NCBI RefSeq assembly: GCF_009649845.1
Contig: NZ_WJIE01000005.1
Location: 248,001 to 312,000, forward strand
Source of the DNA: Polyangium spumosum
GTDB lineage: Bacteria > Myxococcota_A > Polyangia > Polyangiales > Polyangiaceae
Direction: 5' to 3'
DNA: 64,000 nt
Part shown: positions 32,321 through 38,462 of the stretch, one piece after another
Layout of the letters: each line of letters opens with the position of its first letter
How positions within the stretch are numbered: the stretch's first letter is position 1
Translations under genes and position numbers: made by a program
The notes under the pieces: generated by a model
The model's database searches: none
The model's input: the letters and a program-made list of their open reading frames with translations, nothing else
Told to the model about the DNA's origin: nothing

Positions 32321-33160
32321 TTACTTCTTCTCTTCGGGGGCGCCGGGCCGCGCGTCGCGTGGCCTCTCCGCGATCGCCGGGTCGATCCACGGGAGCGTCC
32401 TCCGCAAAATCTCCAGCGGAATGGGCGGCCGCTCCGCCGGGGGGCCCGAGACCACGATGTCCCTCTCGATCGCGGCGAGCGTCTCCCGCCCGAGCTTGCG
32501 CGCCGGCTCGACCGTGATTTGCGGGCCCTCGTGCCGATCGCTGTCGACCTCGATCGCGGCGAGCGTCTCCCGCCCGAGCTTCGGCGCGGGCCCGATCGTG
32601 ATCTGCGGCGCCTCGGTCACGAGCTCGTCGAGCTTGATCGCCGCAAGCGTCTCCTGCCCGAGCCTCGGCGCGGGCCCGATCGTGATCTGCGGCGCCTCGG
32701 TCACGAGCTCGTCGAGCTTGATCGCCGCCATGGACGCCTGCCCGAGCACCGCGGGCCCGCGCACCTCGATCGAGGGCCCGGCCCCCGGCTCCTCGCGCGG
32801 CGCGAGCAGCGCTTCAATCGCGCCGAGCTCGGCCTCGAACGCCGCGCGCGCGCCGGGGCGCCCCTCGGCAGAGGCCAGCGCGAGGCATACGACGAGCTTC
32901 GACGCCGCCACGGCGAGGCAAACCTCGAGGGGCCCCTGCCCGCCATAAGGAACGAGCTCGCCGCGGGGCAAGCTCGTCGCCGCGACCCCACGCCGATCCG
33001 ATACGGCGTCCGCGAGGCGCGCGAGCTTGTTTCGCCCGATCTCGGGCATCTCTCGCGGCGCGTCGCGCGTCACGAGCGCGCCTTCACGCGTCAAAGCAAA
33101 AGCGAACTCCGCGCCGGCGACGATACGAAGACGCTCGAGAAGATCATCGAGGGTCGACAT
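32321..33160 (-). CDS. Roadblock/LC7-like protein with 28-residue repeats
   Basis: A 279-aa cytoplasmic protein. Residues ~1-115 (LDDLLERLRIVAGAEFAFALTREGALV) resemble a roadblock/LC7 domain, the fold of MglB-type regulators of small GTPases. About 140-245 hold four copies of a 28-residue unit built on LGRETLAAI, then KLDELVTEAP and QITIGPAP; the middle two are almost identical. The tail is Pro/Arg/Glu-rich. The ATG at 33160 is preferred over a TTG 9 bases upstream. It is convergent with the PLP-enzyme gene with a 5-base gap. A role in polarity or motility regulation would be inference only. Confidence 0.65.
   Translation of the reverse strand: MSTLDDLLERLRIVAGAEFAFALTREGALVTRDAPREMPEIGRNKLARLADAVSDRRGVAATSLPRGELVPYGGQGPLEVCLAVAASKLVVCLALASAEGRPGARAAFEAELGAIEALLAPREEPGAGPSIEVRGPAVLGQASMAAIKLDELVTEAPQITIGPAPRLGQETLAAIKLDELVTEAPQITIGPAPKLGRETLAAIEVDSDRHEGPQITVEPARKLGRETLAAIERDIVVSGPPAERPPIPLEILRRTLPWIDPAIAERPRDARPGAPEEKK
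32581..32728. repeat. Tandem 84-bp coding repeat
   Basis: The 64 bases at 32581-32644 recur identically at 32665-32728, an 84-bp period that corresponds to the 28-residue protein repeat. A further diverged copy lies one period to the left near 32497. Identity at silent positions points to recent duplication or gene conversion. Confidence 0.8.
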
Positions 33161-33203
33161 CGTAGCCAATGTATCCCGAAGCGTCCCCTCGTGGCTAGCC
33201 TCT

Positions 33204-34717: not shown

Positions 34718-34832
34718 GGCTCACCCGCGTGGGACGAGGCGGACCTTACCACGATCGGTCGAACTTTGATATCCTCGGCCCGCCGCCACTCCGGGCGGAC
34801 GCGGCTCCTTTCTTTTGCGCGACGAGGACGAC

Positions 34833-36611
34833 ATGACCGGCATGCGCTCATTCCATCGCTCGATGTCCCGGCGGGGCAAACCCCTGCTCTCCTTGCTCCT
34901 CGCCTCGAGCGTCTCGCTCGCGGCGGCCTCCTGCGGCGACGACGGCAAGCCCGGCGGCAGGACGGGCGGCTCGACGACGGGCGGCACGCGGAACACCACG
35001 TGCGAGAAGGGCGAGAGCAAGGGCGAGGTGATGGCGCCCGAATACAAGATGACGCTCAAAGGGGAGACGAGCTGGTTCGCCTCGCCCGTGGTGCGTGACC
35101 TCGACGGCGACGGGAAACGTGAGCTCATCGCGGCGTATTATTCGGTCTTCGTGCACGACGCGGAGGGCAACGTACTCGCGAAGGCCGAGGGCGGCGAGGG
35201 GCGCGTCTATGCCCCACACGTCGTCGCCGACCTCGAAGGCGACGGGCTCGTGGACATCGTGTACGGCAGCGATCACGAGGTCTGGGCTTACGAGTGGAAG
35301 GACAAGACGCTCGTGCAAAAAGCGGGGTTCCCCGTCAGCACGACGACGGCGGACAACGCGCCCGAGGTGCGCGGCATGGCCGCGGGGGACCTCGACGGCG
35401 ACGGCGCGCTCGAGATCGTCGTGACCACGACCCAGACGGCGAGCACGGAGAACGGCGGCGCGCAGGTCTTCGCCTTCCGCGCCGACGGATCGCTGCACCA
35501 GCCGGCGGGGCTCGCTTTCCCGGCGTGGCCCCGCTACAACAACCTCACGGGCGCGGGGAACGACGCCGATCGGAATGGCATGGGCCACGCGGGATACGGC
35601 TGCTATGGGCTCAACGTGGCGATCGGGAACATCGACGACGACCCGGAGCTCGAGGTGCTCGCGACCTACGACAACCACCACATCCAGGCCTTCAACCACG
35701 ACGGCGTGGCCGTCGACGCCGCGCCGTTCTTCACGAACCGCGGCAGCGAGTGGGACGGCCAGCGTTTGACCTGGGGCCAGTTCATCCGCTGGGCCGATCC
35801 GAAGGTCGAGGCGGACCATTACAACCTGCACACGGGCGAGTGGCCGCACCCCTCGTTCGCCGAGTGGCTGCAATGGACGGCGTCACCGCCGAACGTGGTC
35901 GACCTCGACCTCGACGGGAAAAACGAGGTGCTGGGCGTGCCGAACATCGAGAAAAACGAGCCGTACGAGACGCAGGCCTACGCGATCATGGTGCTCGAAG
36001 GCGCGCACGGCGACGGGAGCCGCTCGGCCATGCGAAAGCCGGGCTGGGAGACCTTGCCGCGCGGGGAAAAACCGATCGAGGTGGAAGGTTATTACCCGCC
36101 CGGCGGCGTGCCGGCGGCGACGACCGTGAACATCCAGGGTGACGACAAACCCGAGATCGTGGCGCCGTTCAACGACGGGTTCGTCTATGCGTTCGGCGCG
36201 GACGCGAAGCAGATCTGGCGCTTCAATTACACGCACGGAAAATCGATCATGTTCGCGACCGAGGTGGTCGTGGCCGACCTGAACCAGGACGGCTCGCCCG
36301 AGCTGCTCTTCGCCACGTACGGCGATCCGGACGTGCTCGACTCGGGGTACCTCGTGGTCCTCGGCGCGGACGGGACGCTCCTGCACGACGTGCCGCTCCA
36401 CAACACGGGCCAGCAAAATGGCAATGGCAACGGCGCGCCCGCGGCGCCGGCCGTCGGGGACCTCGACGGCGACGGGCAGCTCGAGATCTTCGTGCAGACA
36501 TTCGAACACGGCCTCGACGTCTTCACCGTGCCCGGATCGGCCGAGAATTGCCTGCTCTGGTCCACCGCGCGCGGCGGGCCGCTCCGCATGGGGCAGCCGA
36601 ACGGGGATTGA
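34833..36611 (+). CDS. FG-GAP/VCBS-repeat lipoprotein
   Basis: A 592-aa lipoprotein, lipid Cys ~34 (VSLAAASC), short Gly/Thr linker, then a repeat domain. At least eight FG-GAP-type calcium-loop motifs can be read: DLDGDGKREL, DLEGDGLVDI, DLDGDGALEI, NIDDDPELEV, DLDLDGKNEV, NIQGDDKPEI, DLNQDGSPEL and DLDGDGQLEI. Together they should form an integrin-like β-propeller stabilised by Ca. Likely exposed on the cell surface in adhesion or glycan binding. ATG 34833 has GAGGACGAC just upstream; TTG 34815 is an alternative. Confidence 0.85.
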   Translation: MTGMRSFHRSMSRRGKPLLSLLLASSVSLAAASCGDDGKPGGRTGGSTTGGTRNTTCEKGESKGEVMAPEYKMTLKGETSWFASPVVRDLDGDGKRELIAAYYSVFVHDAEGNVLAKAEGGEGRVYAPHVVADLEGDGLVDIVYGSDHEVWAYEWKDKTLVQKAGFPVSTTTADNAPEVRGMAAGDLDGDGALEIVVTTTQTASTENGGAQVFAFRADGSLHQPAGLAFPAWPRYNNLTGAGNDADRNGMGHAGYGCYGLNVAIGNIDDDPELEVLATYDNHHIQAFNHDGVAVDAAPFFTNRGSEWDGQRLTWGQFIRWADPKVEADHYNLHTGEWPHPSFAEWLQWTASPPNVVDLDLDGKNEVLGVPNIEKNEPYETQAYAIMVLEGAHGDGSRSAMRKPGWETLPRGEKPIEVEGYYPPGGVPAATTVNIQGDDKPEIVAPFNDGFVYAFGADAKQIWRFNYTHGKSIMFATEVVVADLNQDGSPELLFATYGDPDVLDSGYLVVLGADGTLLHDVPLHNTGQQNGNGNGAPAAPAVGDLDGDGQLEIFVQTFEHGLDVFTVPGSAENCLLWSTARGGPLRMGQPNGD

Positions 36612-36654: not shown

Positions 36655-37014
36655 TCACACCTTCCCCGTCCCGAGGACGTCCGCGTAAATCTCGGGATCG
36701 AACCCCACCACGAGCGTCTTTCCCACCCGCATCGTGGGGGCCCGGAGGCCGCCGGTCGGCCCGAGCAGGGCGCCGAGCACCTCCTCGTCCGGCGGGCGAG
36801 CGCGCATGTCCAGCGTGACGCGTTTTTTCCCTTTCACCGCCACGACCCGCTCGGCCTTTCGAGCGAGCGCGAGCGCGCCCTCCTCGCCGAGCTTCGCCTT
36901 GCCCGCGTCGACCATCTCCGCGATCACCACGTTTTCTTGCGCGAGAAACTCCCGCGCTCGGGTGCACGAGGTTCACCCCTTGCGGTGATAATACCAGTCG
37001 GCTCGTTCGCTCAT
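36655..37014 (-). CDS. ArsC/Spx-like thioredoxin-fold selenoprotein, UGA read as Sec14
   Basis: Reading from ATG 37014, preceded by AAAGGAGGAATTC (a perfect ribosome binding site), the frame runs MSERADWYYHRKG, then TGA at 36975-36973, then TSCTRAREFL and on without interruption to a TGA at 36657, giving 119 residues. With UGA as selenocysteine the motif is U14-T-S-C17, exactly where ArsC/Spx-like proteins have CxxC before a helix. The cis-Pro region (LRAPTMRVGKTLVVGF) is intact, so this is unlikely to be a decayed gene. Expected role: thiol or selenol redox reaction in the cytoplasm; an arsenate target is not assured. A caller unaware of Sec would report only a 91-residue fragment from GTG 36930. 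Confidence 0.85.
36939..36957 (-). promoter_or_regulatory. Candidate bacterial SECIS hairpin
   Basis: On the coding strand, 15 bases after the UGA, GCGCGGGAGTTTCTCGCGC folds with GCGC/GCGC and GAG/CUC stems, a bulged GG and an apical GUUUC or UUU loop. A G-U at the start of the loop, ~23 bases from the UGA, is what SelB-recognised bacterial SECIS elements require. The stem is short, so this is a candidate only. Confidence 0.45.
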
Positions 37015-37157
37015 GAATTCCTCCTTTCCCGGATACCTCGCAGGTTTTACCGGGAACGTCAAGCCGTTCTCGATCGGAAGGGGTTGCTTCGGTCCGCCCG
37101 TGCGTCCTAGACTCGGCGGCCCGCGCTGTCCGTCGTCTCTCGTCAGGGGTCCGCACC

Positions 37158-38462
37158 ATGAGCGTCTCCACTCTCGGCGACTCTGCCGCAGCCCAGGCGC
37201 CCTCGCTGCGGCGCAGGCTCACGTTGTTCGACGTCCTCTGCATCGGCGTGAACGCCACGGTGGGATCGGGCGTGTTCGCGCTGCCCGACGACATGCACCG
37301 GGTGATGGGCGGGTTCTCCCCGCTCTCGTTCGCGCTCTGCGCGCTGCTCCTGATGCCGGTGGCCCTCTGCTTCGCCGAGCTCGCGGGCAGGCACGCCGAG
37401 ACGGGCGGGACGTACCTTTATGCGCGTAATGCGTTCGGGGACCAGGCCGGCTTCCTCGTCGGGTGGTTTTGCTGGGCGAACACGTTCGTGAGCTGGGCGG
37501 CGAACGCGAGCCTCTTCGTGGAGCTCGTCGGGATCCGCGGGCCGTTCGTGGGATCAATCGGGGCCGCGGCGGTCGTGGTGGCGCTCGGGGTCGTGAATTA
37601 TTTCGGCGTGAAGCCGGGCGCGTGGGTTGTGAACGCGATGACGATCGGCAAGATCGGCGCGATCCTGTGTTTCCTCGTGGTCGCGGCGTCGCTCTTCGAT
37701 CCGTCGCGGCTCGGGGGAAAACTCCCGCTCGGCGCGCTCGGCGTGGGGCAAGGCGTGTATCTCGCGCTCTTCCCGCTGCAGGGTTTCGAGGTGACGCCGA
37801 TCCCGGCGGGCGAGACGCAAAACCCACAACGAAACGTGCCGCTCGGGACGCTCGGGGCGCTGTCGATCTCGGCGCTGCTGTTCATCGTGGTGCAGGCGGT
37901 GCTCGTGTCGGTGTATCCGAAGATCGGCGAGCCGTCGGGCCAGCCGCTCGTCGACGCGGCGAAATTCGTGGGGCCGACGATCGGCGCGATCGTGGTCGCC
38001 GGCAGCCTGCTCTCGGTCGGAGGATTCACGGCGGGCAGCGCGCTCGGGTCGCCGCGATATGCGCAGGCGATCGCGGCGCATGGCCTCATGCCCGCGGGGC
38101 TCGCGCGGGTCCACGGGCGCTGGGGGACGCCACACGTGGCGATCTTCTGGACGACGGCGATCACGGCGGTGCTCGCGTTTTTCTTCGATTATCGGCGCCT
38201 CGTGGGGATGAGCAACATCACGATCGTGATCCAGTACCTCTTCACGTGCCTCGCGGTGCCGGTGCTGCGGAAGAAGGACGGCGAATCGCAGGGCTTCCGG
38301 GTGCCAGGCGGGAAGATCATTCCTTTCGTCGGGGCGGCGGGATCGGTCGGGCTGCTCGCCGGCGCGGAGAAGCCGGAGTTCTTGTTCGCCGCGGCGACGC
38401 TCGTGCTCGGGATCCTGGTCGCGGTGGGCACGAAAAAGATCACGAGCGCGCCTCGCTCGTGA
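37158..38462 (+). CDS. APC-family amino acid/polyamine permease
   Basis: A 434-aa membrane protein with ~12 hydrophobic segments. The first helix has the broken GVNATVGSGVFALP motif that binds the substrate amino and carboxyl groups in APC transporters, and the second holds CFAELAGRHAETGGTYLYAR. These secondary transporters import amino acids with protons or exchange them. The substrate cannot be assigned. It is divergent from the selenoprotein gene across 143 bp, and is a single-gene unit. Confidence 0.87.
   Translation: MSVSTLGDSAAAQAPSLRRRLTLFDVLCIGVNATVGSGVFALPDDMHRVMGGFSPLSFALCALLLMPVALCFAELAGRHAETGGTYLYARNAFGDQAGFLVGWFCWANTFVSWAANASLFVELVGIRGPFVGSIGAAAVVVALGVVNYFGVKPGAWVVNAMTIGKIGAILCFLVVAASLFDPSRLGGKLPLGALGVGQGVYLALFPLQGFEVTPIPAGETQNPQRNVPLGTLGALSISALLFIVVQAVLVSVYPKIGEPSGQPLVDAAKFVGPTIGAIVVAGSLLSVGGFTAGSALGSPRYAQAIAAHGLMPAGLARVHGRWGTPHVAIFWTTAITAVLAFFFDYRRLVGMSNITIVIQYLFTCLAVPVLRKKDGESQGFRVPGGKIIPFVGAAGSVGLLAGAEKPEFLFAAATLVLGILVAVGTKKITSAPRS

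Follow-up and report, generated by a model that had tools for sequence, protein, structure and literature searches.

A Polyangium gene with an in-frame UGA very probably encodes a selenoprotein of the ArsC-related family NF041106

The window analysed here, a 64,000-nucleotide stretch of Polyangium spumosum DNA on contig C5 of the host assembly, carries on its minus strand a gene with an internal UGA. It is nearly certain that this UGA is read as selenocysteine (Sec) and that the gene is a functional, single-gene member of the ArsC-related selenoprotein family NF041106 in a myxobacterium. The read-through protein matches the NCBIfam model NF041106, "ArsC family (seleno)protein" (ArsC_rel_Se_1), with 127.6 bits (E 2.7e-37, residues 6-110). 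Membership in the family requires a score above the curated cut-off of 85 bits together with Sec at the first place of the UxxC motif, and the window protein has both. The gene also displays the features by which bacterial selenoproteins are recognised: its UGA aligns with the Cys of homologues, a SECIS-type hairpin follows, and selA, selB, selC and selD are present in the genome. Independent lines of evidence support decoding, in Polyangium, of a UGA at which the listing of open reading frames (ORFs) stops. A preliminary description of the window, made from the DNA letters, had proposed Sec at this position, and the family match, the decoding genes and the homologues with UGA or Cys all bear this out.

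The family is already catalogued in print, and the window gene is a further member of it; ArsC-like selenoproteins are listed in the excerpted parts of PMC13188914, PMC9312934 and PMC1794560. Table 1 of the first of these, a 2026 review, contains an 'Arsenate reductase-like protein' (NF041106, UxxC) attributed to PMC2398784, a 2022 review (PMC9312934) lists 'Arsenate reductase-like protein, COG1393, UxxC', and a 2006 study (PMC1794560) lists ArsC-like selenoproteins in deltaproteobacteria. An excerpt of the 2008 Global Ocean Sampling study (PMC2398784) gives 'Arsenate reductase 2, cd03032, UxxC' with 42 selenoproteins and 238 Cys homologues; judging from its citation in PMC13188914, we infer that this row is the NF041106 family. 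Literature searches that combined selenoproteins with Polyangium, myxobacteria or Sorangium, or with Planctomycetes (including PMC4807772, in excerpt), yielded nothing on the window gene among the matches listed. For the selenoprotein field, the existence of this protein is expected and no surprise. The preliminary description had also called the gene hidden from standard annotation. For the family as such, that view does not hold, since NCBIfam has a dedicated model and the excerpted review lists it.

Gene layout and conservation of the UGA

The gene starts with an ATG at 37014-37012, which is followed by 13 codons and a TGA at 36975-36973 as codon 14. Past this internal TGA, the same frame continues for 105 sense codons to a TGA stop at 36657-36655. 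The read-through product, MSERADWYYHRKGUTSCTRAREFL...LGTGKV, is 119 amino acids long with U-T-S-C as residues 14-17. Ribosome binding site, start, in-frame UGA and 105-codon frame had all been reported in the preliminary description; the sequence confirms the coordinates given there, and the observation is correct. The gene is the sole match to itself in the host genome at E 0.001, and a search for a sigma-70-like promoter near it found none. The features are collected in Table 1.

Table 1. Features of the selenoprotein gene and its surroundings (window positions)
Feature	Position	Strand	Remark
Selenoprotein gene	36655..37014	-	119 residues, Sec at 14; coordinates include TGA stop
UGA very probably decoded as selenocysteine (residue 14)	36973..36975	-	Frame read-through and conservation in relatives
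Codon of second Cys of UxxC motif (residue 17)	36964..36966	-	Sequence; Ser/Ala in 6/77 Sec-bearing named loci
SECIS-like hairpin, 8 pairs	36939..36957	-	nt 19-37 from U of UGA; fits bacterial SECIS model in PMC13188914 (excerpt)
Apical loop GUU of hairpin	36947..36949	-	23 nt after UGA; G at nt 27 in 94/104 distinct UGA genes
Ribosome binding site AGGAGG	37020..37025	-	Sequence
Amino acid permease, divergent neighbour	37158..38462	+	Outside selenoprotein unit
FG-GAP repeat protein, convergent neighbour	34815..36611	+	Outside selenoprotein unit

The idea of a conserved operon was rejected, as no recurrent neighbour was seen beside the window gene and 107 further loci. Neighbouring ORFs of at least 90 amino acids were clustered within 9 kb on either side of the window gene and within flanks of 1.5 kb for most other genomes and up to 4 kb for the named loci (defined below). 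The four largest clusters consist of the gene itself and, among the members listed, almost solely of frames that overlap the selenoprotein gene. Beyond these four, none of the 25 largest clusters, for each of which up to 10 members were listed, occurs in more than eight loci outside Polyangium. Therefore, no functional partner can be read from the neighbourhood. Elsewhere in the window, an ORF on the minus strand (32321-33169) carries head-to-tail peptide repeats of the type LG(Q/R)ETLAAIKLDELVTEAPQITIGPAP.

Decoding of UGA as Sec would call for SelA, SelB, SelC and SelD, as the preliminary description had pointed out while finding none in the window. A search of the host genome (10.76 Mb, 99.7% complete) found all four above their cut-offs. 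The tRNA-Sec gene (C2:91081-91174) scores 69.7 bits (gathering score 47), and its anticodon was assigned as TCA by ARAGORN. It adjoins selB (C2:89922-91022), the C-terminal part of which lies at C2:89094; the two pieces together reach 315 bits (cut-off 242), and the SelB protein contains EF-Tu, SelB-wing_2 and SelB-wing_3 domains. Matches to selD (C5:595510-596433; 390 bits, cut-off 125) and selA (C4:718194-719528; 490 bits, cut-off 268, with a Pfam SelA domain as well) complete the set. The host genome has no match to a Sec-containing formate dehydrogenase above the cut-off, the weak matches being free of in-frame stops, and the selD match has no in-frame stop, so that neither points to a second selenoprotein in this host.

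Among 377 genomes of the phylum, 77 contain a match above the NF041106 cut-off. One in-frame TGA lies inside the match in 76 of these, and none in genome G363 (locus L052), whose redox site carries Cys (C-E-T-C). For 33 of the 76 genomes with a TGA, its position was read from the DNA, the remainder being known by TGA count alone, and in all 33 it falls at the codon of the window gene. In an alignment of 33 members, the consensus around the site is WYYHRKG-[site]-TSC. Named database loci gave a similar picture: of 181 confirmed loci, the best 80 by similarity to the window protein have UGA at the redox place in 77 cases and Cys in 3. Of the two peptide patterns used to find the named loci, one carried Cys in place of Sec and should have biased the search towards Cys forms, provided that this letter was back-translated as Cys codons alone. 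These best 80 include four Polyangium records at 86-90% identity, many Planctomycetota, several Myxococcota/Deltaproteobacteria, and some Acidobacteria, Tectomicrobia, Krumholzibacteria, KSB1 and others. In all, the analysis shows the ArsC-like selenoprotein in 77 of the 377 phylum genomes, 76 of them having the TGA in frame, as well as in many records from planctomycetes.

The four other Polyangium genomes all keep the UGA, without a single amino-acid change in the eight codons before it and with 11-16 amino-acid versus 17-19 silent codon changes in the 105 codons after it. Alignment with homologues had been proposed in the preliminary description as a check, and it revealed UGA or Cys at the site and conserved residues upstream. 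A tRNA-Sec match occurs in 68 of the 77 family genomes versus 147 of the 300 other genomes of the phylum (Fisher P 5e-11, uncorrected for relatedness, with one of the two underlying tRNA searches run under stricter filters). The nine family genomes that lack the match are assemblies of 280-960 contigs with a completeness of 78-90%. All nine have selA above the cut-off, as does G363 (10 of 10).

Two groups of loci at the margin of the family also contain in-frame UGAs. A sister group from genomes of the same order (L053:462-797, L054, L055 and L056) has the motif FYGR[AI]UTGC; the three members that were scanned score 60-69 bits to NF041106 (cut-off 85), and all four have a hairpin at the same place. 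No stop was recorded for them in the phylum scan, since the match started past the UGA. More distant ArsC/Spx-like matches (L062-L066, L069 and others) contain one in-frame TGA and score 22-31 bits to NF041106, L065 having U-T-T-C. These are perhaps other selenoprotein subfamilies of the same fold.

A hairpin downstream of the UGA and alternatives to selenocysteine

According to the excerpted text of PMC13188914, a bacterial SECIS element is a hairpin in the coding region just past the UGA, 16-37 nt away, with a G as the first or second nucleotide of the apical loop. The window gene has an 8-pair stem with the loop GUU at 23 nt from the UGA. As an isolated 20-nt element, this hairpin has a folding energy of -13.4 kcal/mol (z -4.9 versus dinucleotide shuffles). 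For free RNA comprising the 48 nt from the UGA, the more stable prediction is a competing structure in which nt 2-12 pair with nt 19-30 (-15.3 kcal/mol); nt 2-12 may be covered by the ribosome during decoding of the UGA. Measured against synonymous recodings, the window gene alone is borderline (z -1.88, with 5.7% of recodings as stable), and Rfam at its gathering threshold gave no match across the 64-kb window.

The family as a whole was compared in a set of 104 distinct UGA genes and four Cys genes, assembled from the 80 named loci and 37 others, less duplicates. This set contains 28 of the 30 loci L022-L051, of which L024 is the window gene; L044 and L051 are outside it, though both show UGA and stand in alignment A2. 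Of 20 further stretches, nine entered the set (L052-L057, L061, L067 and L068), among them L053-L057, all of which score under the NF041106 cut-off. L059 was left out for a frame broken near the contig end, and L058, L060, L062-L066 and L069-L071 for pattern mismatch or as partial or distant.

Across the 104 UGA genes, the 21 nt that form codons 6-12 past the UGA exceed synonymous recodings in stability by a mean of 5.3 kcal/mol (mean z -1.93), and 95 of the 104 lie below -1. The remaining nine have z of -1 or above, L057 being most plainly devoid of a hairpin. The four Cys genes show no stabilisation at this place (z +0.83, +0.09, -0.02 and -0.73). A scan along 36 UGA genes located the peak of the signal (-2.07) at offset 0, with -1.02 one codon on and values between -0.7 and +0.4 at the 38 further offsets given. 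The two arms of the hairpin also fit each other: a gene's own arms pair at a mean of 6.97 of 8 positions versus 5.34 for swapped arms (sd 0.13; highest of 2000 swaps 5.76) over 87 distinct arm pairs, a test that, like the shuffles, ignores relatedness. In the four Cys genes, 3-5 of the 8 arm positions pair. The stem is built from differing sequences and in differing registers in different lineages.

Ten of the 104 UGA genes lack the loop G (L087, L092, L097, L104, L118, L119, L123, L128, L129 and L137), seven of which are labelled Planctomycetota. In a wider window, their z values range from -1.26 to -3.55, which may point to a SECIS-like stem of greater length in these members. The wide-window test discriminates poorly, however, since it also gives -1.41 and -1.75 for two of the four Cys genes. 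By analogy with established bacterial Sec decoding, SelB would bind the hairpin through its winged-helix domains and deliver Sec-tRNA to the UGA.

These results bear on three explanations that dispense with Sec. The TGA might have arisen in an ArsC-like gene of the Cys type, through either a nonsense mutation (pseudogene) or a miscalled base (sequencing error); TGA is one base from the Cys codons, and Cys homologues do exist (4 of 108 distinct genes). Conservation speaks strongly to the contrary, with an in-frame TGA in 76 of 77 family genomes, at the same codon in every one of the 33 read, UGA in 77 of the best 80 of 181 named loci, silent changes in excess of amino-acid changes and UGA retained in all four Polyangium relatives. 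Moreover, the hairpin accompanies the UGA and not the Cys codon, and we regard a decayed or misread gene as extremely improbable. The same very low probability attaches to a start downstream of the UGA, at a GTG at 36930, which would turn the upstream part into a leader. The ORF listing does give a 91-amino-acid ORF at 36655-36930, but AGGAGG precedes the ATG at 37014, the conserved WYYHRKG and TSC lie ahead of the GTG, and the 91-residue product would be missing the initial strand and helix of the structural model. Reading of the UGA by near-cognate suppression, or by reassignment to Trp or Cys, likewise has next to no likelihood: we found no point in its favour, the gene's own stop is TGA, the host has tRNA-Sec with anticodon TCA together with SelA, SelB and SelD, and the hairpin fits the bacterial SECIS model.

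Cysteine forms and loss of the partner cysteine

In the 77 Sec-bearing loci among the best 80 of 181 named loci, the second, partner place of the motif is Cys in 71, Ser in five (UxxS; L081, L098, L105, L111 and L143) and Ala in one (UxxA; L147). All six of the latter keep Sec without a partner Cys. The UxxC motif of the preliminary description is present in the window protein, as U-T-S-C, but is therefore not strictly required in the family.

The four Cys genes do not group together in a maximum-likelihood tree of the 108 genes built from residues after the redox site. Starred branches of this tree force at least three changes between Sec and Cys, and two Cys genes, L113 and L144, share a starred clade with a Sec gene. 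The tree is unrooted and built on few columns, with unsettled bootstrap values, very long branches for L052 and L057, and labels no more clustered than after shuffling. A selA above the cut-off occurs in the genomes of Cys loci L113 and L052 and was sought but not found in those of L141 and L144, two genomes of unstated completeness, a distribution that is as expected if the Cys forms are conversions. Such conversions would have freed the gene from the Sec system; with an unrooted tree, the direction from Sec to Cys is one that we infer. The Cys member L052 (G363:C28:295038-296766) lies about 100 bp from selA on the opposite strand, in a genome that keeps both selA and tRNA-Sec.

It is tempting to speculate that the family is native to selenium. 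Sec would be its ordinary state, the Cys forms would be repeated late conversions that lack the hairpin, and the lone selenol would be resolved by an external thiol, Sec being kept where the partner Cys is Ser or Ala. At the same time, the SECIS hairpin would dictate paired amino-acid changes in the first helix (SK...D/E versus QE, QG or RE...A), so that RNA structure steers protein evolution. Taken jointly, we hold these two proposals to be evenly poised between right and wrong. New in the present analysis are the conserved SECIS-like hairpin with natural Cys controls and the UxxS/UxxA members, in which Sec persists in the absence of a partner Cys. SECIS prediction gains a natural control in the hairpin-less Cys members, and whether a resolving Cys is needed can be tested directly with the UxxS/UxxA members; these are the parts of possible use to specialists.

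Fold, proposed activity and known relatives

An AlphaFold2 model built from a 33-row alignment (pLDDT 92.7, pTM 0.84) has a thioredoxin-like fold. The best structural matches by VIA-align include Spx (3ihq; Z 9.2, rmsd 2.7 over 88 residues), YffB (1rw1; Z 8.5) and ArsC (3f0i; Z 8.2); by itself, Foldseek matched Spx at E of about 0.001, with no match under 0.001. A profile search against solved structures retrieved 2m46 ('Arsenate reductase, putative'; E 4.6e-9) and Spx (E 6.8e-9). A Z of about 9 may also arise from a common fold, and the case for kinship therefore draws on the profile match as well (best E 4.6e-9). Model, profile matches and structural matches agree with the ArsC/Spx-like thioredoxin fold put forward in the preliminary description.

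Residues R11, the Sec/Cys site, C17, G62, G85, G88, R91-A92-P93 and G104 are invariant in the 33 rows, C17 being variable in the wider set of named loci. The profile alignment places Pro93 opposite the Pro of the R-R-P of Spx, and it may be the cis-Pro of the thioredoxin fold. The invariant arginines of the 33 rows, as read from the sequence alignment, are R11 and R91. As described in an excerpt of PMC3169414, the catalytic arginine triad of E. coli ArsC comprises Arg60, Arg94 and Arg107, and YffB proteins, which are without this triad, bind glutathione. The host genome contains a glutathione synthase match of 351.8 bits (cut-off 299).

The activity that we favour is a selenol-based, probably glutathione-linked thiol-disulfide or deglutathionylation reaction. 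We consider this type of reaction most likely because YffB binds glutathione without the ArsC triad and because the host has a glutathione synthase match. The product would be a protein of 119 residues with the thioredoxin fold, its U-T-S-C placed where the first helix begins. Its Sec selenolate would attack an oxidised substrate, for example a disulfide or a mixed disulfide with glutathione; Cys17 or glutathione would then resolve the resulting selenosulfide. The 6 of 77 Sec loci that have lost the partner Cys speak for glutathione, or some other external thiol, as resolver, at least in those lineages. Our confidence in this scheme, with arsenate reduction as the less likely course, is about half.

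Two other functions deserve weighing. A genuine arsenate reductase would agree with the name 'arsenate reductase-like' in the excerpt of PMC13188914, with the deposition of the top profile match, 2m46, as 'Arsenate reductase, putative', with the common fold (Z 8.2 to an ArsC structure) and with a host genome that is without a TIGR00014 arsenate reductase. The protein itself, however, reaches 14.9 bits to Pfam ArsC (PF03960) against a gathering score of 24 and has no TIGR00014 match up to E 0.1, and next among its profile matches come Spx chains and YffB, the latter without the arginine triad and binding glutathione (PMC3169414, excerpt); we judge this function unlikely. Slightly less likely still is a role as an RNA polymerase-binding regulator of the Spx type, with a Sec-Cys pair as its redox sensor. 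Spx supplies the best structural match and most of the best profile matches, but the score to TIGR01617 (Spx/MgsR) is 19.3 bits versus a cut-off of 75.05, and the partner Cys that a Sec-Cys switch needs is Ser or Ala in 6 of the 77 Sec-bearing named loci.

Among known systems, the ArsC arsenate reductases (TIGR00014, PF03960) share the fold family with the window protein (Z 8.2 to 3f0i), which, unlike them, stays under the Pfam gathering score and without a TIGR00014 match. Spx (1z3e, 3ihq and 6ghb) shares the fold with Z up to 9.2, and its CxxC occupies the place of UxxC in the alignment with 1z3e; unlike Spx, the window protein is far under the TIGR01617 cut-off. YffB (ArsC-YffB; 1rw1 and 2kok) resembles it in fold (Z 8.5 to 1rw1) and in profile matches to both structures, whereas YffB has Cys where the window protein has Sec, and identity to 1rw1 is about 20%. 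With the NF041106 family, the window protein shares Sec at the first UxxC place and a match above the cut-off; we found no excluding difference, and the window copy stands as a myxobacterial member.
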